Shown: positions 9,705-62,916 of the stretch, piece after piece
Layout of the letters: every line of letters starts with the position of its first letter
Numbering within the stretch: the first letter of the stretch is position 1
Source: Nitrosarchaeum koreense MY1
Lineage (GTDB): Archaea > Thermoproteota > Nitrososphaeria > Nitrososphaerales > Nitrosopumilaceae
Length of the DNA: 64,000 bases
Direction of reading: 5' to 3'
Assembly: GCF_000220175.1 (NCBI RefSeq)
Contig: NZ_AFPU01000001.1
Coordinates: 1,275,512 to 1,339,511, forward strand
Translations under genes and position numbers: made by a program
Notes under the pieces: generated by a model
What the model was told of the DNA's origin: nothing
Databases searched by the model: none
The model's input: only the letters and a program-made list of their open reading frames with translations

Positions 9705-10565
9705 TTATCTTGGAAAATATCTACTTTTTTTATTCATAGATTTCGGTTTTTTATGTTCAGTTTTTGCTTGAGGTTGCCTAATTTCATTACAGTTCAAACA
9801 TAATACTCTCAAATCTTTTCTAGCCAACTCTGGTTCAGAAATATACTTTCCCCAGGATGAAGCAAATCCACCTCTACGAATACTGTCAAATGCATCTTCA
9901 TCATTAATATGATTAAATCCTAAAGCTCGCTCATCTTTAAATCCACAACTGGAACATATTTTACCACCTAAAATTTCAAATAATTTTTCTTTTAGAGAAG
10001 AATAGAATTTTTCAGAACCATTTGAATAGAAACTCTCAGATTTTTTTAGGAATTTTTCATTTTTAGATTTAGAATTTCTAAAATCATCTTGTCTAGATCT
10101 CGGTTCATCTCTGGAATATCTATCTCGAGATCTCGGTTCATCTCTGGAATATCTATCTCGAGATCTCGGTTCATCTCTGGAATATCTATCTCGAGATCTC
10201 GGTTCATCTCTGGAATATCTATCTCGAGATCTTGGTTCATCTCTGGAATATCTATCTCGAGATTCTTGTGGTTTATTTTTTTGAAAACATTCGCTACAAT
10301 ATACAGGTCTGTTAAATTTTGGTTCAAATGGAATTTGGCATTCATCTCCACAATCACCACATGTTACAGTATGCATTTCTGGTTTTCTTTCATTTCTGGA
10401 ATATCTATCTCGAGAAGGTCTTTCATATCTAGAATTTCTAAAAGAACGTGAAGGTATGTCATCTCTAGAATTTCTAGAAGTTTGATTAGGTTTAGAATGT
10501 CGATCAAATTTTTTATCAGAATATTTTGCTTTATAGAGATCCATTTTCTTATACATATTCATCAC
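9705..10565 (-). CDS. Zinc-ribbon / low-complexity / HNH-like three-part protein
   Basis: 286 residues. The N-terminal 60 residues are basic and Ser/Arg-rich. A zinc ribbon follows (CGDCGDECQIPFEP... YCSECF), of the type found in archaeal CxxC-(20)-CxxC proteins. Next are five tandem copies of RDRYSRDEPRS. The C-terminal domain has ICSSCGFKD...GFNHI...LCLNCNE, which resembles a four-Cys HNH endonuclease fold. RGG/RS-like linkers and zinc ribbons suggest RNA or nucleic-acid binding. The start could be either of two nearby ATGs. Confidence 0.8.
   Translation of the reverse strand: MMNMYKKMDLYKAKYSDKKFDRHSKPNQTSRNSRDDIPSRSFRNSRYERPSRDRYSRNERKPEMHTVTCGDCGDECQIPFEPKFNRPVYCSECFQKNKPQESRDRYSRDEPRSRDRYSRDEPRSRDRYSRDEPRSRDRYSRDEPRSRDRYSRDEPRSRQDDFRNSKSKNEKFLKKSESFYSNGSEKFYSSLKEKLFEILGGKICSSCGFKDERALGFNHINDEDAFDSIRRGGFASSWGKYISEPELARKDLRVLCLNCNEIRQPQAKTEHKKPKSMNKKSRYFPR
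10095..10259. repeat. Five tandem 33-bp repeats inside the zinc-ribbon gene
   Basis: Five consecutive 33-bp units beginning at 10095, 10128, 10161, 10194 and 10227, with only one or two base differences. Because 33 is a multiple of three they encode five copies of an 11-residue Arg/Asp/Ser/Tyr motif. Copy number is likely to vary by slippage without breaking the frame. Confidence 0.95.
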
Positions 10566-38057: not shown

Positions 38058-40199
38058 TTATTGCTCAGGGCAACCGTCAATGATTCCAATATAGTCTTCA
38101 GATTTTAGTGGGCATTTATCAATATCATTGATAATTCCATCAAGATCATCATCATGAACAAATCTTTGTTGTTCTGGAGCAGTATCAGGACAGCCATCCC
38201 AATCTCTGTATTTATTCCAAGTTTCAGGTGCAGTTGGACATGAATCAATATCATCAGGATATCCATCAGAATCAGAATCAGGTCGTGTTGGTGCTGATGA
38301 ATCTGCTCCTCTCACATCAGGACATCCATCCCAATCAAGATATCCGTTAAAGTTTTCTTTTTCGTTAAGACATGAATCCCATCTGTCATCAATTCCATCC
38401 TCATCAGCATCTGGGAATTTGTAATCAGTTGTAGTACCGATTGCTACATCAGGGCAGCCGTCTTCATCTTGGAAATTATTGTAAGTTTCTGGGTTTGATG
38501 GACATGCATCTACAGCATCAAGAATTCCATCTTGATCAATATCAAGAGTTGATGTAAATTTATCAGGGCAGCCGTCTTCATCCTGGAATCCGTTAACTGT
38601 TTCAGGTTGAGTTGGACACAAATCTAGATTATCTAAAATGCCGTCACCGTCAGTGTCTGCAGCAAATTTATCAACGGAGATACTGTCAGGGCAGCCATCG
38701 TCATCCTGGAATCCGTTATAATTCTCTCTTGAGTATGGACATAAATCGTTATCACCAAAGATACCATCATAATCAGAATCTCCAACTGATTTTAAATCAA
38801 GACTATCAGGGCAGCCATCGTCATCTCTGAATTTGTTAAAGTTTTCACGTTCTTGAGGACATTGATCAATAGAATCTGGAATTGAATCATAATCAGAATC
38901 AATCAAACTTCCAGAACGTGCTGTTACTGTGTCAGGACAACCATCCCAATCCAAAAATCCATTAAATGTTTCTGGTTCACTTATACATGAATCCCATCTG
39001 TCATCAATTCCATCGCCATCAGCGTCTGGGAATTGGTAAGATGTAGTAGTATCAGAAGTTACATCAGGGCAGCCGTCAGTGTCTTGGAAATTATTGAAAG
39101 TTTCCCTAGTATATGGACATAAATCATTGTCACCAAAAATACCGTCATAATCAGAATCAAGTGATGATGTAAATTTATCAGGGCAGCCGTCAGTGTCTTG
39201 GAATCCGTTAACTGTTTCAGGTTGAGTTGGACATAAATCTAGATTATCGATAATACCGTCACCATCAGAATCAGCGATGAATTTTTCATTGAAAATACTA
39301 TCAGGGCAGCCGTCAGTATCTTTGAATTTATTATATGTTTCTGGATTATATGGACATAAATCATTGTCACCAAAAATGCCGTCACCGTCAGCATCACCTA
39401 CTATTTTATAATCAATCACATCAGGACAACCGTCATTATCTTGGAATTTGTTAAAGTTTTCACGTTCTTGAGGACATTGATCAATAGAATCAGGGATTGA
39501 ATCATAATCAGAATCAATCAAACTTCCAGAACGTGCTGTTACTGTGTCAGGGCAACCATCCCAATCCAAAAATCCATTAAATGTTTCTGGTTCACTTATA
39601 CATGAATCCCATCTGTCATCAATTCCATCGCCATCAGCGTCTGGGAATTTGTAATCAGTTGTAGTACCGATTGCTACATCAGGGCAACCGTCAGTGTCTT
39701 GATATTTATTATAAGTTTCAGGAGCAGTTGGACATGAATCTAAATGATCAGAAATGCCATCTCTATCAGTATCTGTTAATGAAATATTATCAGGACAACC
39801 GTCTTTGTCATCAACTCCATTGAATGTTTCAGGTTGAGTTGGACACAAATCTAAATTATCGATAATACCATCACCATCAGTATCTGCAACTGCCTTATCT
39901 GTAGAGGGTGTCAAGTCAGGGCAGCCGTCTTCATCTTGATATTTATTGTATGTCTCTCTAACAGTAGGACATGTATCAATATGATCTGGAATTCCATCAA
40001 AATCAACATCATACCATGGGACAAATGTAGATGGACAGCCATCAATTGTACCGGTATAATCTTCTTGAAGATTTGGGCATAAATCAAGATTATTTGTAAC
40101 ACCGTCATTGTCATTATCTTCAACACCAAAGGCACTACTTTGGAAAATACCAATAGAGGCAATCAAAAGTAAAAATCCAAGAATGTAATATTGTTTCAT
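38058..40199 (-). CDS. Secreted thrombospondin type-3-like calcium-repeat protein 1
   Basis: 713 residues from the ATG at 40199 (signal peptide MKQYYILGFLLLIASIGIF...). The mature protein is repeats of about 35 residues with the pattern DxDxDGxxDxxDxCP...NxFQDxDGCPD, as in TSP3 and OmpA-linked calcium repeats. The Asp residues bind Ca2+ and the Cys pairs form disulfides, giving a rigid rod. It ends in IIDGCPEQ with no membrane anchor or OmpA domain. An upstream in-frame start at 40241 is less likely as it would bury the signal peptide. It is the third of three tandem paralogues. Confidence 0.9.
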   Translation of the reverse strand: MKQYYILGFLLLIASIGIFQSSAFGVEDNDNDGVTNNLDLCPNLQEDYTGTIDGCPSTFVPWYDVDFDGIPDHIDTCPTVRETYNKYQDEDGCPDLTPSTDKAVADTDGDGIIDNLDLCPTQPETFNGVDDKDGCPDNISLTDTDRDGISDHLDSCPTAPETYNKYQDTDGCPDVAIGTTTDYKFPDADGDGIDDRWDSCISEPETFNGFLDWDGCPDTVTARSGSLIDSDYDSIPDSIDQCPQERENFNKFQDNDGCPDVIDYKIVGDADGDGIFGDNDLCPYNPETYNKFKDTDGCPDSIFNEKFIADSDGDGIIDNLDLCPTQPETVNGFQDTDGCPDKFTSSLDSDYDGIFGDNDLCPYTRETFNNFQDTDGCPDVTSDTTTSYQFPDADGDGIDDRWDSCISEPETFNGFLDWDGCPDTVTARSGSLIDSDYDSIPDSIDQCPQERENFNKFRDDDGCPDSLDLKSVGDSDYDGIFGDNDLCPYSRENYNGFQDDDGCPDSISVDKFAADTDGDGILDNLDLCPTQPETVNGFQDEDGCPDKFTSTLDIDQDGILDAVDACPSNPETYNNFQDEDGCPDVAIGTTTDYKFPDADEDGIDDRWDSCLNEKENFNGYLDWDGCPDVRGADSSAPTRPDSDSDGYPDDIDSCPTAPETWNKYRDWDGCPDTAPEQQRFVHDDDLDGIINDIDKCPLKSEDYIGIIDGCPEQ

Positions 40200-41916
40200 T
40201 ATCTTTGACTTCGATATTATTGAGTATTTATTAAATCTCACGTTAAAAAGATCCTTCTATAAAATATCTAACAACAAAAGAGACCTATTGCTCTGGGCAA
40301 CCATCAATTATTCCAATATAATCTTCTGATTTTAGAGGACATAGATCTTCATCGTTGATAATTCCATCTAGATCATCATCGTGAACAAATCTTTGTTGCT
40401 CTGGAGCAGTATCAGGACATCCATCAGAGTCATTGTATTTATTCCATGTTTCAGGTGCAGTTGGACATGAATCTACAGAGTCAGGATAACCATCACCATC
40501 AGAATCAGCTCGGTCAGATATAGTAGATTCAGCCCCTGGAACATCAGGACATCCATCCCAATCAAGATATCCGTTAAAGTTTTCTTTTTCGTTAAGACAT
40601 GAATCCCATCTGTCATCAATTCCATCCTCATCAGCGTCTGGGAATTTGTAATCAGTTGTAGTACCGATTGCTACATCAGGGCAGCCATCATCGTCTTGGA
40701 ATTTATTGTAAGTTTCTGGGTTTGATGGACATGCATCTATTGTATTTGAAATACCATCTCCGTCAGTGTCAAGAGTAGATGTAAATTTATCAGGACAGCC
40801 GTCTTTATCTTGATAATTATTGAAATTTTCAGGTTGGGTTGGACATAAGTCTAAACGATCTGTAATGCCGTCACCGTCAGTATCTATAGTTGATTTATCA
40901 TCAGCAATATAGTCAGGGCAACCGTCTAAATCCAAATATCTATTGTATGTTTCTTTAATGAGTGGACATTGATCAATATCATCGGCAATACCATCTTTGT
41001 CTGAATCACCTCCAGATTTTAGATCTATACCGTCAGGACAGCCGTCTTCATCTTGGAATCCGTTGTATCTTTCTGCAACTTTTGGGCAGTCATCTACAGA
41101 ATCTGGAATACCATCATAATCATAATCAGATAATTTACCAGCAGTTGTACCTGGAACATCAGGACATCCATCCCAATCAAGATATCCGTTAAAGTTTTCT
41201 TTTTCGTTAAGACATGAATCCCATCTGTCATCAATTCCATCCTCATCAGCGTCTGGGAATTTGTAATCAGTTGTAGTACCGATTGCTACATCAGGGCAGC
41301 CATCATCGTCTTGGAATTTATTGTAAGTTTCTTGAATAAGTGGACATTGATCAATATCATCTGCAATACCATCCCTATCAGTGTCATTATTCAAAAGAGA
41401 TTTATCAGGACAGCCGTCTTTATCTAAGAATCCATTGAATGTTTCTGGTTGAGTTGGACATAAGTCAAAATAATCATTTATACCGTCACCGTCAGTATCT
41501 GCAGTTGATTTATCATCAGCAATATTATCAGGACAGCCGTCTTCATCTTGGAATTTATTATAAGTTTCTGGATTAAATGGACATGAATCATTTTGATCAA
41601 AAATTCCATCACCATCAACATCGTTTATTATTTTATAATCAATTATATCTGGACATCCGTCAGCATCCTGGAATTTGTTAAAGTTTTCACGTTCTTGAGG
41701 ACATTGATCAACAGAATCTGGGATTGAATCATAATCAGAATCAGCTAAATTACCAGCAGTTGTACCTGGAACATCAGGACATCCATCCCAATCAAGATAT
41801 CCGTTAAAGTTTTCTTTTTCGTTAAGACATGAATCCCATCTGTCATCAATTCCATCCTCATCAGCGTCTGGGAATTTGTAATCAGTTGTAGTACCGATTG
41901 CTACATCAGGGCAGCC
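38314..41916. repeat. Long near-identical DNA blocks shared by calcium-repeat genes
   Basis: The same roughly 146-bp block occurs at 38314-38459, 40541-40686, 41156-41301 and 41771-41916. It matches along the stretches I compared, with one base difference seen in the first copy. The three copies in gene 2 are 615 bp apart. A related variant appears at 38931 and 39541, 610 bp apart. This makes a higher-order unit of about 205 codons built from smaller modules. Confidence 0.85.
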
Positions 41917-42426
41917 ATCATCGTCTTGGAATTTATTGTAAGTTTCTTGAATAAGTGGACATGAATCTAAATGATCAGAAATGCCATCTCTGTCAGTGTC
42001 TGTTGATGAAATATTATCAGGACAACCGTCTTTGTCATCAACTCCATTGAATGTTTCTGGTTGAGTTGGACACAAATCTAAATTATCGATAATACCGTCA
42101 CCATCAGTATCTGCAACTGCCTTATCTGTTGAAGGTGATAAATCAGGACAGCCGTCATCGTCCTGGAATTTATTGTAGATCTCTCTAACAGTAGGACATG
42201 TATCAATATGATCTGGAATTCCATCATAATCAGCATCATACCATGGAACAAATGTAGATGGACAGCCGTCAATTGTACCGGTATAATCTTCTTGAAGGTT
42301 AGGACATTGATCAACATTGTTTGTAACACCGTCATTGTCATTGTCTTCAACACCAAAGGCATTACTTTGGAAAATACCAATAGAGGCAATCAAAAGTAAA
42401 AATCCAAGAATTTGATATTTTTTCAT
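40285..42426 (-). CDS. Secreted thrombospondin type-3-like calcium-repeat protein 2
   Basis: 713 residues from ATG 42426 (signal peptide MKKYQILGFLLLIASIGIFQ), nearly identical at both ends to protein 1. Same calcium repeats. It contains three near-identical blocks of about 146 bp spaced 615 bp apart (40541, 41156, 41771). An alternative start at 42438 abuts the upstream gene's stop; the ATG 4 codons later gives a better signal peptide. Probably cotranscribed with the 809-residue gene. Confidence 0.9.
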   Translation of the reverse strand: MKKYQILGFLLLIASIGIFQSNAFGVEDNDNDGVTNNVDQCPNLQEDYTGTIDGCPSTFVPWYDADYDGIPDHIDTCPTVREIYNKFQDDDGCPDLSPSTDKAVADTDGDGIIDNLDLCPTQPETFNGVDDKDGCPDNISSTDTDRDGISDHLDSCPLIQETYNKFQDDDGCPDVAIGTTTDYKFPDADEDGIDDRWDSCLNEKENFNGYLDWDGCPDVPGTTAGNLADSDYDSIPDSVDQCPQERENFNKFQDADGCPDIIDYKIINDVDGDGIFDQNDSCPFNPETYNKFQDEDGCPDNIADDKSTADTDGDGINDYFDLCPTQPETFNGFLDKDGCPDKSLLNNDTDRDGIADDIDQCPLIQETYNKFQDDDGCPDVAIGTTTDYKFPDADEDGIDDRWDSCLNEKENFNGYLDWDGCPDVPGTTAGKLSDYDYDGIPDSVDDCPKVAERYNGFQDEDGCPDGIDLKSGGDSDKDGIADDIDQCPLIKETYNRYLDLDGCPDYIADDKSTIDTDGDGITDRLDLCPTQPENFNNYQDKDGCPDKFTSTLDTDGDGISNTIDACPSNPETYNKFQDDDGCPDVAIGTTTDYKFPDADEDGIDDRWDSCLNEKENFNGYLDWDGCPDVPGAESTISDRADSDGDGYPDSVDSCPTAPETWNKYNDSDGCPDTAPEQQRFVHDDDLDGIINDEDLCPLKSEDYIGIIDGCPEQ

Positions 42427-42438
42427 TTTATGATACAC

Positions 42439-44868
42439 CTATTGTTCTGGGCATCCATCAATTACACCTAGATAATCTTCTGGCACTGTAGGACATAAAT
42501 CGTAATTATTCACAATACCATCTAAATCATCATCATGTTTGTAACGTGATTGCTCAGGAGAAGTATCAGGACAACCGTCATCGTCTTGGAATTTATTGTA
42601 AGTTTCTTTGTCATTAGGACATTTATCAACATCGTCGTTTATTCTATCACCATCTGTATCTATAGTGGTTTTACCTATTGGAATAGTATCAGGACAACCG
42701 TCATAGTCAACATACTTATTCCAAGTTTCCTTTTGTGTTGGACACATATCCATTATGTCAGGAACACCGTCACCATCTGCATCAGGTTGAGATATGTTAG
42801 TATCAGGACATCCATCATCGTCTTCAAATCCATTAAAGGTTTCAGCAACCAAAGGACATTGATCAAGTACATCACTTATTCCATCATTATCAGAATCTAT
42901 TACAAATGATTCAATAATTTTGTCAGGACAACCGTCATCGTCTTGGAATTTATTGTAAGTTTCTTTAGCCATTGGACATGCATCTATTCCATCAGGTAAT
43001 CCATCTTGATCTGAATCAATATTAGAGATATAATTATCAGGGCAACCATCCAAGTCTAAAATTCCATTAAATGTTTCTGGTTGATTTGGACAGTTATCTA
43101 TACGATCATGAATTCCATCACCATCAGAATCTGGCATACCTTTATCATCTGCAACATAGTCAGGACAACCGTCAGTGTCTTGGAATCTATTGTAGGTTTC
43201 TGGAACAAGTGGACAATTATCTAGAGTATTTACTATACCATCAAAGTCTGAATCAACATCTGTCAAATAAGATGGGAAATCAGGGCAGCCATCAGTATCT
43301 TCAAATCCATTATATCTTTCAGGAACTAGCGGACAAACATCAGTAGAATCTAAAATTCCATCAAAGTCAGCATCTAAATCACCAGGATTATCAGGACAAC
43401 CGTCATTATCGATATATCTATTCCAAGTTTCTGGTTGAGTTGGACATTGATCTAAGGAATCTCTAATTCCATCATTATCAGAATCCAATATAGAAATGTC
43501 TGGACAGCCATCGGTGTCTTGATAACCATTAACAACTTCAGGTTCTAATGGGCATTTATCTAATAGATCAGCAATTCCATCACCGTCAAAATCTGAAGAA
43601 GAAGCACTGGATATTTTATCTGGACAACCGTCATCGTCTTGGAATTTATTGTAAGTTTCTTTTTCTGTTGGACATGCATCTTTAGTATCTATAATTCCAT
43701 CTCCATCTCTATCAATCAATGATGCATTATCAGGACAACCATCGTCATCTTGGAATCCATTAAATGTTTCAGCACGAGTTGGACACAAGTCTGCATAATC
43801 TCGAATTCCATCACCATCAGAATCTGGAGATGTTTTATCATCTGCAACATAGTCAGGGCATCCGTCATCATCTTGGAATTTATTGTAAGTTTCTTTCACT
43901 GTTGGACATTGATCTACATTGTTTGGAATTCCATCTTGGTCTGAATCAGCAGTAATCGAATAAACAGGAATATCTGGACAACCATCGGTGTCTTCAAATT
44001 TATTATATCGCTCAGGTTCTAATGGGCATGCATCATCTATATCCATAATACCATCACGATCGGAATCATTTAGTTTTCCTGTGAATGAAGGAACTGAATC
44101 AGGACAGCCATCGTAATCAGCAAATTGATTGAATGTTTCTTTTTGGTTAGGACATGTATCAGATTTGTCAGGAACACCATCACCATCTGCATCACTAAAT
44201 GTAGTATCTAAAACAACATCAGGACAGCCGTCAGTATCTCTATAACCATTAAAAGTTTCAGGTTCTGTTTGACAAAAATCAATTTTATCAATTATACCAT
44301 CATTGTCAGTATCAACAAATGATGAGTCAGTAATAGTATCAGGACAACCGTCAGTATCTTGGAATTTATTGTAAGTCTCAGCACTTAGTGGACATGAATC
44401 TAAATGATCTGGAACACCATCTCTATCTCTATCTGAACCAGAACCAAAAGTATCAGGACAACCGTCAGTGTCAAAGATACCATTAAACGTTTCAGGTTGA
44501 GTTGGACACAAATCTAGAACATCAATAAAACCATCACCATCAGAATCAGGAGGTCCTCCAGTAGTTCCAGGAGTAGTATCGGGACAACCGTCAGTATCTT
44601 GGAATTTATTATAATTTTCTCTCAAACTTGGACATTGATCAATATTATCCTGAATTCCATCAAAGTCCTCATCATACCATGGAACAAAATTAGATGGACA
44701 ACCATCTATTACACCATCATAATCCTCTTGAAGATTAGGACAGCTATCTGTCTCATCTGTAACTCCATCACGATCTAAATCATCAGTAGCAGCAAATACA
44801 GGACTTGTGGAAATGCCAATTATTATGGCTAAAAATAAAAATATGAATCCCATACGTATTTTTTTCAA
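42439..44868 (-). CDS. Secreted thrombospondin type-3-like calcium-repeat protein 3
   Basis: 809 residues, the longest and first-transcribed member. The signal peptide is MKKIRMGFIFLFLAIIIGISTSPVFA. It has the same TSP3-like repeats but less similar to the other two, suggesting the 1 and 2 pair is a recent duplication. Likely attached to or forming part of the cell-surface layer. It lies 134 bp from taw1, which is divergent. Confidence 0.9.
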   Translation of the reverse strand: MKKIRMGFIFLFLAIIIGISTSPVFAATDDLDRDGVTDETDSCPNLQEDYDGVIDGCPSNFVPWYDEDFDGIQDNIDQCPSLRENYNKFQDTDGCPDTTPGTTGGPPDSDGDGFIDVLDLCPTQPETFNGIFDTDGCPDTFGSGSDRDRDGVPDHLDSCPLSAETYNKFQDTDGCPDTITDSSFVDTDNDGIIDKIDFCQTEPETFNGYRDTDGCPDVVLDTTFSDADGDGVPDKSDTCPNQKETFNQFADYDGCPDSVPSFTGKLNDSDRDGIMDIDDACPLEPERYNKFEDTDGCPDIPVYSITADSDQDGIPNNVDQCPTVKETYNKFQDDDGCPDYVADDKTSPDSDGDGIRDYADLCPTRAETFNGFQDDDGCPDNASLIDRDGDGIIDTKDACPTEKETYNKFQDDDGCPDKISSASSSDFDGDGIADLLDKCPLEPEVVNGYQDTDGCPDISILDSDNDGIRDSLDQCPTQPETWNRYIDNDGCPDNPGDLDADFDGILDSTDVCPLVPERYNGFEDTDGCPDFPSYLTDVDSDFDGIVNTLDNCPLVPETYNRFQDTDGCPDYVADDKGMPDSDGDGIHDRIDNCPNQPETFNGILDLDGCPDNYISNIDSDQDGLPDGIDACPMAKETYNKFQDDDGCPDKIIESFVIDSDNDGISDVLDQCPLVAETFNGFEDDDGCPDTNISQPDADGDGVPDIMDMCPTQKETWNKYVDYDGCPDTIPIGKTTIDTDGDRINDDVDKCPNDKETYNKFQDDDGCPDTSPEQSRYKHDDDLDGIVNNYDLCPTVPEDYLGVIDGCPEQ

Positions 44869-45007
44869 AGCTTAAATTTACGTCAAAGATCCAGTTATTA
44901 AACTTCACTCTGAAATCGGCTAAAAATGGGAAAAGTTTTGAGAGTTATTTTTAAGAAAAAACAAGGATCACGATCAATTTAAGTAAAGCAAAACAGATTT
45001 TTTGCAT

Positions 45008-58085: not shown

Positions 58086-61000
58086 TCAATAATTTGTTTG
58101 TTTTTGTCTAAGAATCAAAAATAGAACAATTCCGATCGCAATCCCAACTCCAATGCCAATAGATAATCCAATATTAAAAGACGAATTATCATTATTATCA
58201 TTTATTATTATTTGAGAATCATTTGTGATGGTTTGAGAATTATTTGTGATGGTTTGATCAATAATTTCAGAATTAGTTTCGTTTTTAAAAGTTGACATAA
58301 TTTCTGTGTTATTTAATTGAGTTTGTAATGGCTGATTTTTTGAAGAAATGTTTGAAAATTTAGCTGCGAGTGTAATTGATTCTGTAGTTTCATCTCCACC
58401 AAACAATGTAGTATGAGCTAAAAGAGAATATGTTCCTGTTTGATTTATTGGGACATAAAGTACAGTAGAATTATTATCTTTGTTTTTTACTGGATAGAAT
58501 CCACCACCTTGACTAAAAACAGAATTACCTAACCAATCAAGTGAAGGCCATCCAAGAAAATGGCCAAATACTCCTGATGGCATATTAGATTGAATTATTT
58601 TTCCTTTAGGATCAACAACAAATACTGACAAGTTTGTGTCATCAGATTTCCAAGATAATTCTATTGCTGCAGAATTTATCGAGTCATCAACTACATCAAA
58701 ATAATATTGTCTCCAATCACCTGCCATGTATCTATTTGCCATATCAAATGCGCCCTTGACATAACCATTACCATAAAGAATATCATTACTTTGCTTTCCA
58801 TCAATTAATACAAGTGAATCTTTTTGATTAATTGGTTCCTTAACAACAAATGATACTGGAGTATTTACAGTATGATTTTTTCCTTCAAATGATATGAATC
58901 CCTGATAGTTACCAGATTGAAAATCATTTTGTGCAATTAAAGAGACATTTAATTTTGCAACATCGTTTGCAGGTACAGTAATTGTCTCAAACTCTGGCCA
59001 GATTACAGACCATTTATCTTTTTGATAATAGCTTGCAGATAATGTGTATTCCATTGAAGTTGAATTTTGTTTTGTGTCACCGAGATAGTAAGAGTATCTA
59101 GTTGGAGTTGGATACACACCGACTAGTGGGATTCCTTTGAATTTTTCATTTGGTTCAGAGATTCTAAGTTCTTGAACTGTTCCCCATGATCCAGCTCTGC
59201 TAACCATTAACAATTCATTGCTAGATACATTAGTGTCATTGTTTTTATCAATCCAATCATAAAGATATAATGAAGAAATTTTCATGTCATTAGCATAAAG
59301 AACATCAGTTTTATTCATAAAATTATCAAATGGAAAATTAAGATTCAATATCATCAATGATGATTCAGCTGGAATTGAATTGTTATCAAAAAACTCGCCT
59401 AACTCTTTAGGGTTTTTGACATCAGATAGTTTGATGTAATTTGGAATAAATGCATCTGATTTGTTTAGCATAGGATCTTTTTGTTGTACTTTAGTTGTTC
59501 CATCATATAGAGTATTTTTGATCAAAGATATTGTAGTTGGTTTGATTGATATTTGAATTGGATTATCAGTTGGGTTTTCAATTGTAAAAGTTGTCTTAGT
59601 AGATTCACCAGGATGTAATTGGCCTGCAAACCAACTTGTCATAGGCATGGTCTTTGTTGGAAATTCAAATTTCTCAAATCCAAGGGATGTAGAGTTAATT
59701 GTTTCAAGTGGGGATTTTAAAATTTCTTTGATATTATTGTATGATACATCATTGTAAACAATAAATTTTCCATCTTCACCGTTTACAAAACTTAATGCAA
59801 CACTTGCATCTACTAGTCCAGATCCTTGAGTGAATGGATCATTTTGAAGATCTTTTGCAGTAGACATTAGAATATTTTTAATTGTAAATGAATCATAATC
59901 TTTTGATTGTTTGTTTAGTCCCTCCATTAAAAGTGCTGCACTTCCAGAAACCAGAGGTGCTGCCATACTAGTTCCCCCAAATAATGAAAAAGATTCATCC
60001 TTTGAATCTTTTTTTGTTTTAATAACATTAGACGGAGTAAAACCATGAGCACCAATACTCATCAAGTCAGGTTTTGGATCACCAATGATTCCAGGGCCCC
60101 TACTTGAAAAATCTACTACATCATTAAAGTGAAAAGTGCCATTACCAAATCTAGGTTGATCCTTAAACGGACCATATCCAACATAGACATTATTTGTAGT
60201 AGCCCCTACTGTAATTCCAAATGGAGATGAGTTTGGCATTCCAATTGTTCCATATCCATGTCCAGAATTTCCAGCACTAGATACAATTGTTATTCCTGGA
60301 TAATTATCATCAAGTGAATGAGGGGTAGCAAGTATGCTAAGTATTATAGAAAGAATATCCATTCCAGGTGCAGAATTAAATGATGGAAAATTTGAGATGC
60401 CCCAGCTGTTTGAAATTATATCCACTCTTGGTTTTCCAGTAAAATTCCAACTATGATCATTACTGTCAAAACCCGATAACCACAACCATGCATAAACAGT
60501 ATCACCTACCCACAATGATTTTACAGGTACAATTTTTGCACCTGGTGCAACACCTGTGATAGTAAATTTACTGGTATTGTTGTAAATGTCATATGTCTGA
60601 TTACCTTTTGATGTAATAGAAGAAGCACTTGATGTTCCATGTCCTGCAAAATCTGTCATCACTCCAAAAAACATTCCTTTAGAATCAAATGCAGGCAATA
60701 AAGTACCGTTAATTGCATTTAGTGTTTTATCAATATCTGACGTTTTGTTTTGAATTACACCATAAACATCTAGTACTTGAGCGCCAACTGTTCCTGCACT
60801 ATAATCTGCTTTACCATCACCATTTGAATCATAAACGAGAAATTCATTTCCACTTCCTAAAATTATAGGTTTTTCATCAGTAAAATCAAAATCATATTTT
60901 GGTCTCTCTCCTGATTTTAAATCAAATCTAGTATAATCTTCCCAAGACGTACTCATATCGGGAATTATAGTATCGTAAACTCCAGCTGTATTAGAATCAA

Positions 61001-61913
61001 CTACGAGTATAGGTACTACTTGTATTCTTGCTAATGGTCCTTCTAAACCTCCCTGATACATCACTCCAAAATGGTAAATTCCACTTTTTGATTTGATGTA
61101 ATTTCTATTATCATTACCAATTTTCATATCAGTATCTAATATTCCTTCAAAGATAGGAGCATTTCCAGATTGAGGAAAAAAAGAGTTGTAAATTGGAATT
61201 TTTGTTCCTTTACCATTTTGAGAGATGTTTAAAAAAATTCCATCTCTTGTTTGATAAACAGATGAAGTCATTTCTTCTGGAAGTGGTTTTGTGTTGTTTC
61301 GAATGATTCCATCTTTATCAATGAATGCAAAAAAAGTGGAATTTGTAAGAATTATTCCTTGACCATCTGCATCAAGCATTATGGGATGATTGTTTTTGTC
61401 TCTAGCTAAAGAACTTCGTATATCAAGATTTGAAAAATCAACACCTGTATCTACTATTCCTATTTTAATTCCCTGTCCATTTACGTTGTATTTTGTTTGT
61501 GCCAAAGTAGAACCAGTTATTTCTCCAATTCTTGATGCATCAAGAATGGATATATCTGAATGAAAGTCTAGTTTGAAATCTTCTATCACAGTATATCCTT
61601 TAGAAATGAAATTTGAAATGGAATTTTCTGGAAGTACTGCAACATAAAAAAATCCTCCACCAGATTCAATCCCATAAAGAGAGTTATTTTTTAAAAAATT
61701 AGAGTCAGAGTCTGTTCCAAAAATAATGTACCGCTTAAAATTATTTTGTTTAAAAAAATCTGAATTTATTTTTATGATATCAGAATCAAATAAAACAGAA
61801 TTGTTTGATGTTATCTTATTTTCAAGAGGTATGTCTCCACCTACATATGCATAAGAATTTACAAACATTCCTGAAACAAGAAGAATACAAAAAAGAATCG
61901 CCACTTTGGGCAT
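58086..61913 (-). CDS. Giant membrane-anchored subtilisin-like serine protease
   Basis: 1275 residues from the ATG at 61913 (a longer in-frame reading to 62009 overlaps the neighbour and lacks a start signal peptide). Signal peptide MPKVAILFCILLVSGMFV. Catalytic Asp (IVDTGVD, about 154), His (AGHGTS, about 424), Ser (GGTSMAAPLV, about 648). Large inserts sit between Asp and His and between His and Ser. Ig-like beta domains follow, and a C-terminal helix (about 1245-1267) anchors it. It likely acts on cell-surface proteins. Confidence 0.92.
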   Translation of the reverse strand: MPKVAILFCILLVSGMFVNSYAYVGGDIPLENKITSNNSVLFDSDIIKINSDFFKQNNFKRYIIFGTDSDSNFLKNNSLYGIESGGGFFYVAVLPENSISNFISKGYTVIEDFKLDFHSDISILDASRIGEITGSTLAQTKYNVNGQGIKIGIVDTGVDFSNLDIRSSLARDKNNHPIMLDADGQGIILTNSTFFAFIDKDGIIRNNTKPLPEEMTSSVYQTRDGIFLNISQNGKGTKIPIYNSFFPQSGNAPIFEGILDTDMKIGNDNRNYIKSKSGIYHFGVMYQGGLEGPLARIQVVPILVVDSNTAGVYDTIIPDMSTSWEDYTRFDLKSGERPKYDFDFTDEKPIILGSGNEFLVYDSNGDGKADYSAGTVGAQVLDVYGVIQNKTSDIDKTLNAINGTLLPAFDSKGMFFGVMTDFAGHGTSSASSITSKGNQTYDIYNNTSKFTITGVAPGAKIVPVKSLWVGDTVYAWLWLSGFDSNDHSWNFTGKPRVDIISNSWGISNFPSFNSAPGMDILSIILSILATPHSLDDNYPGITIVSSAGNSGHGYGTIGMPNSSPFGITVGATTNNVYVGYGPFKDQPRFGNGTFHFNDVVDFSSRGPGIIGDPKPDLMSIGAHGFTPSNVIKTKKDSKDESFSLFGGTSMAAPLVSGSAALLMEGLNKQSKDYDSFTIKNILMSTAKDLQNDPFTQGSGLVDASVALSFVNGEDGKFIVYNDVSYNNIKEILKSPLETINSTSLGFEKFEFPTKTMPMTSWFAGQLHPGESTKTTFTIENPTDNPIQISIKPTTISLIKNTLYDGTTKVQQKDPMLNKSDAFIPNYIKLSDVKNPKELGEFFDNNSIPAESSLMILNLNFPFDNFMNKTDVLYANDMKISSLYLYDWIDKNNDTNVSSNELLMVSRAGSWGTVQELRISEPNEKFKGIPLVGVYPTPTRYSYYLGDTKQNSTSMEYTLSASYYQKDKWSVIWPEFETITVPANDVAKLNVSLIAQNDFQSGNYQGFISFEGKNHTVNTPVSFVVKEPINQKDSLVLIDGKQSNDILYGNGYVKGAFDMANRYMAGDWRQYYFDVVDDSINSAAIELSWKSDDTNLSVFVVDPKGKIIQSNMPSGVFGHFLGWPSLDWLGNSVFSQGGGFYPVKNKDNNSTVLYVPINQTGTYSLLAHTTLFGGDETTESITLAAKFSNISSKNQPLQTQLNNTEIMSTFKNETNSEIIDQTITNNSQTITNDSQIIINDNNDNSSFNIGLSIGIGVGIAIGIVLFLILRQKQTNY

Positions 61914-61947
61914 TATGATAAATTTTTCCTTTCTTGCATTATTATAA

Positions 61948-62916
61948 CTATCTTCTTCTGGCAAGTATTGCAATTTGAAGCGCCACAATGATTCCAATTG
62001 ATGCCACAATTGGGAAAAATAAAGAGTTTAGTTGAGATGATGCTTCTTCAATGTTAAACACAGAATTTGATACCGAAGTTACGCTTGCATCAATATTTGT
62101 ACTAGCATCTTCCAAAGTAGAACCAAATCTTTCAATTTCTGATTTTAGTGTGTCTAATTCATCTGATGTTTCTTTTAAAACTGAATTTAGTTCTATTATT
62201 TGATTTGAGATTCCACCCAAATCCTGGCTTAGAACATTAGTTGCAACAGAAGCGTGAGATATTGTTCCTTGATTAAAAGATACCACGTGAAAAACATATG
62301 TTCCTTCTTCTTTTGGAGTATAATCTAGATAGTATAATCCCTGATGAAGTGTTGAAAACGCATTAGATATTGTTTCTACCTTTCCTGAAGGTAAGTGAAT
62401 GTGAGTTGTTTGAAGTAATTCTTTTGGATCATCACCAATTAACAAACCATCACTTGTAGTTTGTACAAATATTCTAAATGGATTGTTAATTGCTGCGGTC
62501 TCCGGAGCAAACACAGATGTGAGTACATGTCGTTCTATTGGTATTTCCATCAGATCTGTTGTAGACGTAAATTTTACATCTAGTTTTTGAGAGATTCCAT
62601 TTTGCTCAGTACTAATTACTTCTATAGTATATGTACCAAATGGAAAGCTAGAAGTTGGTTTTGGCCATATTAGTAATACATGATTAAAAGAACCATCATC
62701 AGTAGTAGTTAATTGATCAAATCCTACAATAGTATCATCTGGTGAAAATAATCTAATTATCAAGGTTTCATCGGGCTGACCTTTTCCATATACAAAAAGA
62801 GGTTGTCCTTCGGAATAAACTTGGCTGGTAGTAGATATTTCTAATTCTGAAAATGCTTCATTGACAGGAATAATTAATAATAAAATAAAAGACAATAACA
62901 AAATTTGTGATTTCAA
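61948..62916 (-). CDS. Membrane-anchored surface protein with coiled coil
   Basis: 322 residues from TTG. A signal peptide (1-23) is followed by two macroglobulin/Ig-like beta domains (about 25-230), a coiled coil (about 235-290, IIELNSVLKETSDELDTLKSEIERF), and a C-terminal helix (FPIVASIGIIVALQIAILARRR). Such proteins can tether the S-layer. It is directly upstream of the protease in the same strand, suggesting co-expression. Confidence 0.85.
   Translation of the reverse strand: MKSQILLLSFILLLIIPVNEAFSELEISTTSQVYSEGQPLFVYGKGQPDETLIIRLFSPDDTIVGFDQLTTTDDGSFNHVLLIWPKPTSSFPFGTYTIEVISTEQNGISQKLDVKFTSTTDLMEIPIERHVLTSVFAPETAAINNPFRIFVQTTSDGLLIGDDPKELLQTTHIHLPSGKVETISNAFSTLHQGLYYLDYTPKEEGTYVFHVVSFNQGTISHASVATNVLSQDLGGISNQIIELNSVLKETSDELDTLKSEIERFGSTLEDASTNIDASVTSVSNSVFNIEEASSQLNSLFFPIVASIGIIVALQIAILARRR

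Follow-up and report, generated by a model that had tools for sequence, protein, structure and literature searches.

How a tandem array of long, nearly identical coding repeats is kept in an archaeal genome, and whether such an array is young and variable in length, are the questions raised by a locus of Nitrosarchaeum koreense MY1. Few archaea on Earth are as abundant as the Nitrosopumilaceae, the family of ammonia oxidisers to which this organism belongs, and little is understood of the proteins of their cell envelope. The locus is part of the stretch of DNA analysed here (the window, 64,000 nucleotides; contig NZ_AFPU01000001.1, positions 1,275,512 to 1,339,511) in a complete genome of 1,607,695 bp (G000), and consists of three tandem open reading frames (ORFs) on the minus strand, in the order gene 3, gene 2 and gene 1, which encode secreted proteins made of calcium repeats of thrombospondin type 3 (TSP3). 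An earlier reading made from the sequence alone (the sequence-only reading) had placed three such genes here and proposed that they were recently duplicated, exchanged sequence by gene conversion or unequal crossing over, and might vary in length between strains. We consider it probable (roughly 0.8) that the genes form an operon-like array of long standing, passed on vertically, whose products are secreted TSP3 rods without an anchor, and that its copies recombine in register while length changes by whole super-repeats under selection.

The mechanism that we propose is as follows. Genes 1 and 2 would be built from a higher-order repeat of five modules. Homologous recombination would act between in-register copies, that is, copies 5, 10 or 15 modules apart or in the same slot of the neighbouring gene, continually converting patches of about 60 to 800 bp, most often in the RW module of 44 amino acids (aa), and occasional unequal exchange would lead to the gain or loss of exactly one super-repeat. 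Module lengths would be fixed, and in most species the count held at two super-repeats, by selection on the surface protein.

Modules and super-repeats of the three genes

All three ORFs match Pfam TSP_3 (PF02412), with scores of 102, 117 and 160 bits against a curated gathering threshold of 25, and the PF02412 pattern of conserved Asp Ca2+ ligands with paired Cys is present in each repeat. TSP_3 is the only Pfam family above its cut-off in these proteins; neither a TSP-C lectin domain nor an oligomerisation coiled coil was detected. When solved structures were searched, a profile of gene 3 matched the TSP3 regions of COMP, thrombospondin-1/2 and bacterial OmpA. A profile was needed for this, as a phmmer search of gene 1 against the same structures gave no match at E 1e-6. 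Matches to flavodoxin and calmodulin in the structure profile searches were rejected as noise due to acidic composition. The view that three secreted calcium-repeat proteins are encoded in tandem at this place was confirmed.

Each product consists of a signal peptide followed only by modules, and its C-terminal end is the last module, without a membrane anchor. The lack of an anchor is a real difference, because a second TSP3 gene of the same genome (L039:4129-5439; G000:C1:252 kb) does encode a C-terminal transmembrane segment. This second gene specifies a signal peptide and 10 modules of 37 aa, and is located downstream of a gene for a large envelope-like protein. The likely starts of genes 2 and 1 (ATG at 42426 and 40199) lie slightly inside the ORFs as first delimited, and the TTG start of gene 3 at 44868 is backed by conservation of the surrounding sequence.

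The modules are TSP3-like, as had been proposed, but with 36-44 aa they are nearer to 40 than to the 35 residues first given. They are Cys-paired and end in DGCPD; a Ca2+ motif (DxDxDG..D..DxCP) and a pair of cysteines (CP...DGCPD) are present in each. When 30 proteins of gene 1/2 type and 16 of gene 3 type were aligned, nearly every Asp, Gly and Cys column of the Ca2+ motif was invariant, although whole gene 1/2-type proteins are only 55-78% identical to gene 2.

Written as module lengths, genes 1 and 2 share the code 38-42-37-(44-42-40-41-38)x2-44-44-40, and that of gene 3 is 38-42-38-40-40-42-(40-41-37-40-36-37)-40-41-38-40-38-41-40. The super-repeat of genes 1 and 2 comprises five modules, named A-B-C-D-E (44-42-40-41-38 aa, adding up to 205 aa or 615 bp), and is present twice per gene. 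The blocks of about 205 codons seen by the sequence-only reading are exact in both genes, where repeat families D4-D6 are spaced 615, 615, 997, 615 and 615 bp. The nearly identical 146-bp stretches which it had singled out proved to be copies of the class-A (RW) module (Table 1). Genes 1 and 2 also have, as it had noted, nearly the same signal peptide: module 1 is 94% identical in aa, and 6 of 47 same-residue codons differ.

Module lengths are nearly invariant across the family. Among the 70 gene 1/2-type genes having two super-repeats, 6 of the 16 positions are equal in all genes, and most other positions deviate in at most 3. This invariance is partly by construction, because the classification by length code tolerated differences of +/-2 aa; despite this tolerance, most genes hold the exact modal length.

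Exchange between copies in register

The proposal that super-repeats exchange sequence by gene conversion or unequal crossing-over was upheld by clustered silent identity, exact matches in register and patches that differ between species. Of the same-residue degenerate codons in genes 1, 2 and 3, about 18-21% differ between the window genome and that of a sister species (G015), and modules 15 of genes 1 and 2 in the window differ at only 1 of 42 same-residue silent codons. In the sister species, the near-identical patch shared by genes 1 and 2 is module 5 instead (1 of 41 silent codons differ), so that conversion appears to be patchwise and species-specific. The sister-species orthologue of the third class-A copy of gene 1 is only 82% identical in aa. 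In patches, then, paralogous copies of one genome are closer to each other at silent sites than to their orthologues, as is typical of concerted evolution.

The exact tract around the class-A copies of gene 2 extends to 184-214 bp. Exact runs of at least 100 bp between gene 1/2 copies occur in 29 of 47 genomes, at differing places, and gene 3, which served as an internal control, has a median longest internal run of 35 bp. All 124 exact matches of at least 60 bp within a gene are offset by 5 (90 matches), 10 (32) or 15 (2) modules, and about half of the codons that they cover belong to class A. Identical silent codons are clustered in 37 of the 74 gene 1/2-type genes tested, versus 4 of 53 gene 3 genes. 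At offset 615 of the window's gene 2, they form a run of 76 (p=0.0006), and because of this clustering the identity of the repeats in the window exceeds what chance or amino-acid constraint would give.

Length and age of the array

Searching 400 genomes drawn from the class with gene 3 (E 1e-20) yielded 120 genomes with a match, which with one exception belong to the same family as the window genome; a scan of viral contigs yielded no relatives. The genome collections compared contain one genome per species. Variation in length, which the sequence-only reading had anticipated between strains, does exist between species and always involves whole super-repeats, but it is uncommon (11 of 81 gene 1/2-type and 5 of 59 gene 3-type genes). 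Among the 81 classified complete gene 1/2-type genes, the number of super-repeats (n) is 0, 1, 2, 3 and 4 in 1, 1, 70, 7 and 2 genes, respectively; the 59 gene 3-type genes have one six-module unit in 54 cases, zero in 2 and two in 3. Another 25 complete ORFs were left outside this classification, and inspection revealed that these are mostly frameshifted or split genes, short extra genes, genes of a single-gene lineage, or gene 3 copies with a small internal deletion. In gene 1/2-type genes, inspected together with these ORFs, no gain or loss of one to four super-repeat modules was seen. Gene 3 of Nitrosarchaeum sp. BD3 (L041:7472-9891) is split into two frames by a frameshift or a sequencing error.

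An 834-bp exact run at offset 615 in locus L042 (genome G007) points to a very recent duplication of a 615-bp block, and the doubled gene 3 of L100 contains an exact repeat of 641 bp. Three genes, with n=2 in genes 1 and 2 alike, are found in 12 of the 14 single-contig genomes; the remaining two are G086, with four genes of which one has n=4, and G101, with an n=3 gene. Because most species keep 20-17-17 modules, the arrays are better called length-stabilised than length-variable.

These results bear on the possibility that the array encodes a hypervariable adhesin, varying in phase or length like the surface antigens of pathogens. Conversion among tandem copies and the occurrence of length variants would agree with it, but the conserved length in most species (including the 12 single-contig genomes), the invariant residues of the Ca2+ motif and the lack of any silent cassettes among the sequences seen do not, and the effect observed is homogenisation rather than diversification. 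We consider this explanation improbable. Still less probable is that the near-identical tracts and extra blocks are artefacts of assembly. Assemblies break inside the array in 28 of the 63 array-bearing loci, as such artefacts might lead one to expect, but long tracts are also present in single-contig genomes (213 bp in the window, 816 bp in L148 and 1031 bp in L070) and on a 473-kb contig (635 bp; L063). Moreover, the usual tendency of assemblers is to collapse repeats, rather than to spread exact tracts in a way that keeps strictly to the register.

Across the Nitrosopumilaceae, the array is located between TYW1 and the gene for tRNA-dihydrouridine synthase (Dus) in nearly all loci with both flanks visible. 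It contains three genes in most genomes, two in L075 and L084, and four in L070 and L098. The same three-gene array is carried by the comparison genome G057, and in an open-ocean group (L113-L121), made up of Nitrosopumilus-type genomes from single cells and metagenomes, the TYW1/Dus slot holds only one TSP3 gene, which has a different pattern. Because the three-gene array fills this slot throughout the family, the gene duplication is evidently old; the array appears to be vertically inherited, with only the homogenisation of its sequence being recent.

The recent duplication of the genes assumed by the sequence-only reading thus did not hold up. If the genes had duplicated recently in this lineage, without conversion, the copies would be alike through their youth, and the high identity that genes 1 and 2 show in their signal peptides, caps and class-A modules could be explained in this way. 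However, the same three genes occupy the same slot family-wide, and the converted patches differ between sister species. Furthermore, B and C modules keep their slot identity across species (0.748/0.721 for the same gene and slot, versus 0.673/0.652 for another slot within the genome), while homogenisation within genomes has affected the A, D, E and cap modules, and we give recent duplication even less credence than assembly artefacts. The least likely explanation is that protein-level selection alone keeps the modules alike without DNA exchange: the Ca2+-binding residues are indeed invariant in nearly every module, but silent codons are identical in long clusters, exact DNA runs reach 834-1031 bp, and gene 3, under equal protein constraint, shows little of either.

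The conserved promoter block upstream of gene 3 (Table 1) is nearly invariant over about 24 bp across the Nitrosopumilaceae, which exceeds the requirements of a TATA box. Within the six genomes searched it is effectively private to the array, other promoters giving only chance-level matches with 2-3 mismatches, and no regulon was found in these genomes. A scan for sigma-70 promoters and terminators, a model that is not meaningful for archaea, stayed at shuffle level. Near the start of TYW1, the element TTTACTTAAATTGATCG (window 44964-44980, minus strand) is invariant across the family and is probably the divergent TYW1 promoter.

Two other features of the window were noted. Positions 10095-10263, inside a 286-aa ORF with zinc-ribbon-like cysteines, contain a 33-bp tandem repeat in five nearly perfect copies, which encode RDRYSRDEPRS-type units, and positions 58086-62009 encode a subtilisin-like secreted protein of 1307 aa with a C-terminal transmembrane segment.

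Table 1. Positions of the array genes, their repeats and the upstream block in the window
Feature	Position	Strand	Remarks
Conserved promoter block upstream of gene 3	44893..44917	-	AGAGTGAAGTTTAATAACTGGATC (AGAGTGARGTTTAATAACTGGATC), archaeal TATA-like
Gene 3	42439..44868	-	first in transcription order; secreted TSP3 protein of 809 aa; 20 modules; signal peptide; TTG start
Gene 2	40285..42438	-	secreted TSP3 protein; 17 modules; directly after gene 3 stop
Gene 1	38058..40241	-	secreted TSP3 protein; 17 modules
Gene 2 super-repeat 1	41290..41904	-	modules 5-9 (A-B-C-D-E); 615 bp
Gene 2 super-repeat 2	40675..41289	-	modules 10-14; 615 bp
Gene 1 super-repeat 1	39063..39677	-	modules 5-9; 615 bp
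Gene 1 super-repeat 2	38448..39062	-	modules 10-14; 615 bp
Class-A (RW) module, gene 2 copy 1	41771..41916	-	146-bp stretch; identical to gene 2 copies 2 and 3
Class-A module, gene 2 copy 2	41156..41301	-	146-bp stretch; identical
Class-A module, gene 2 copy 3	40541..40686	-	146-bp stretch; identical
Class-A module, gene 1 copy 3	38314..38459	-	of gene 2 type, apparently by conversion; one mismatch over the 146 bp

Likely function and known systems

TSP3 repeats bind Ca2+. The products of genes 1-3 are presumably Ca2+-stiffened, disulfide-stapled extracellular rods that are associated with the S-layer or the extracellular matrix. This picture starts from the motifs, the family match and the signal peptides; Ca2+ binding, rod shape and location are what we infer from them. 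According to PMC6593220, two TSP3-like proteins of Nitrosopumilus become 15-40 times more abundant under H2O2, alongside S-layer proteins, and its authors proposed a role in the extracellular matrix for TSP3-like proteins. A more specific idea, which we regard as doubtful, is that the array encodes an extracellular ruler built to length. In that case the five-module super-repeat would form a structural period (one turn of a Ca2+ superhelix, for instance), and selection would keep the length of 17 modules matched to a fixed distance, such as that from membrane to S-layer. If so, recombination products would survive only when the length changes by whole turns.

Several points weigh against the old, recombining array of secreted rods that we favour. 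The classical four-sequence silent-site runs test, which is stricter, applied to gene 1 versus gene 2 was not significant for the window pair (p=0.97), unlike the pairwise silent-site test (sum of squares, p=0.0012), and was significant for G015 and G003. Because 28 of the 63 loci end at a contig edge inside the array, lengths known only from metagenome-assembled genomes are less certain, most doubtfully so for n=0 and n=1, and the duplication in L042 may depend on the sequencing technology used for it. The AlphaFold2 model of gene 2, made with 30 relatives, was poor (predicted local distance difference test 57, predicted template modelling score 0.17) and was not used for shape or for a fold search. 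Finally, we infer both the surface location of the products and the link between the array and the H2O2-induced Nitrosopumilus proteins.

With its family-wide locus and its products probably being abundant surface proteins, the array may offer a clean natural system for watching how gene conversion and structural selection act against each other in archaea. There is a warning in it as well, because short-read assemblies often break there.

Like the TSP3 regions of animal proteins (PF02412; COMP, thrombospondin-1/2), the archaeal proteins have tandem Asp-rich DxDxDG..D..D Ca2+ motifs with CP cysteines. The animal thrombospondins contain extra domains (a coiled coil and the TSP-C lectin domain), whereas the mature archaeal proteins consist of 17-20 modules only, with a regular CP...DGCPD pair in each. 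The TSP3 region of a bacterial OmpA-family protein (PDB 5wtl; E=2e-6 to 6e-6) is also prokaryotic and has two Cys per module, but its repeats are shorter; linkers are longer in the archaeal proteins, which lack an anchor. For the bacterial OmpA-family repeats, Ca2+ binding depends on the intra-repeat disulfide (Dai et al. 2017, as cited in PMC6593220). Myxococcal MtsC and TraB (NF047638, NF033763) are likewise secreted TSP3 arrays, acting in cell-cell cohesion or outer-membrane exchange. The archaeal proteins match them strongly but only in part: with at best 191 and 116 bits they fall below the curated cut-offs of 350 and 700, they lack MYXO-CTERM and OmpA domains, and they belong to another lineage.

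A further likeness is to the Nitrosopumilus TSP3 (TT3R) proteins of PMC6593220, which are of the same archaeal family and repeat type; we liken them to genes 1-3 by repeat type, and the main text of that paper does not describe an array, super-repeats or conversion. A literature search found no paper on the array itself, and only PMC6593220 and PMC7265257 mention TSP3-type proteins in these archaea. That TSP3 repeats exist, and that these archaea have them, is already known, but in-register turnover of a higher-order repeat with a fixed module-length code appears to be new relative to the searchable papers. Turnover of higher-order repeats is known from alpha-satellite DNA and from the concerted evolution of gene families. 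The array resembles these in its multi-module exchange register, its homogenisation within genomes and its copy number of whole units; unlike alpha-satellite repeats, however, it lies inside archaeal protein-coding genes under a strict constraint on module length.

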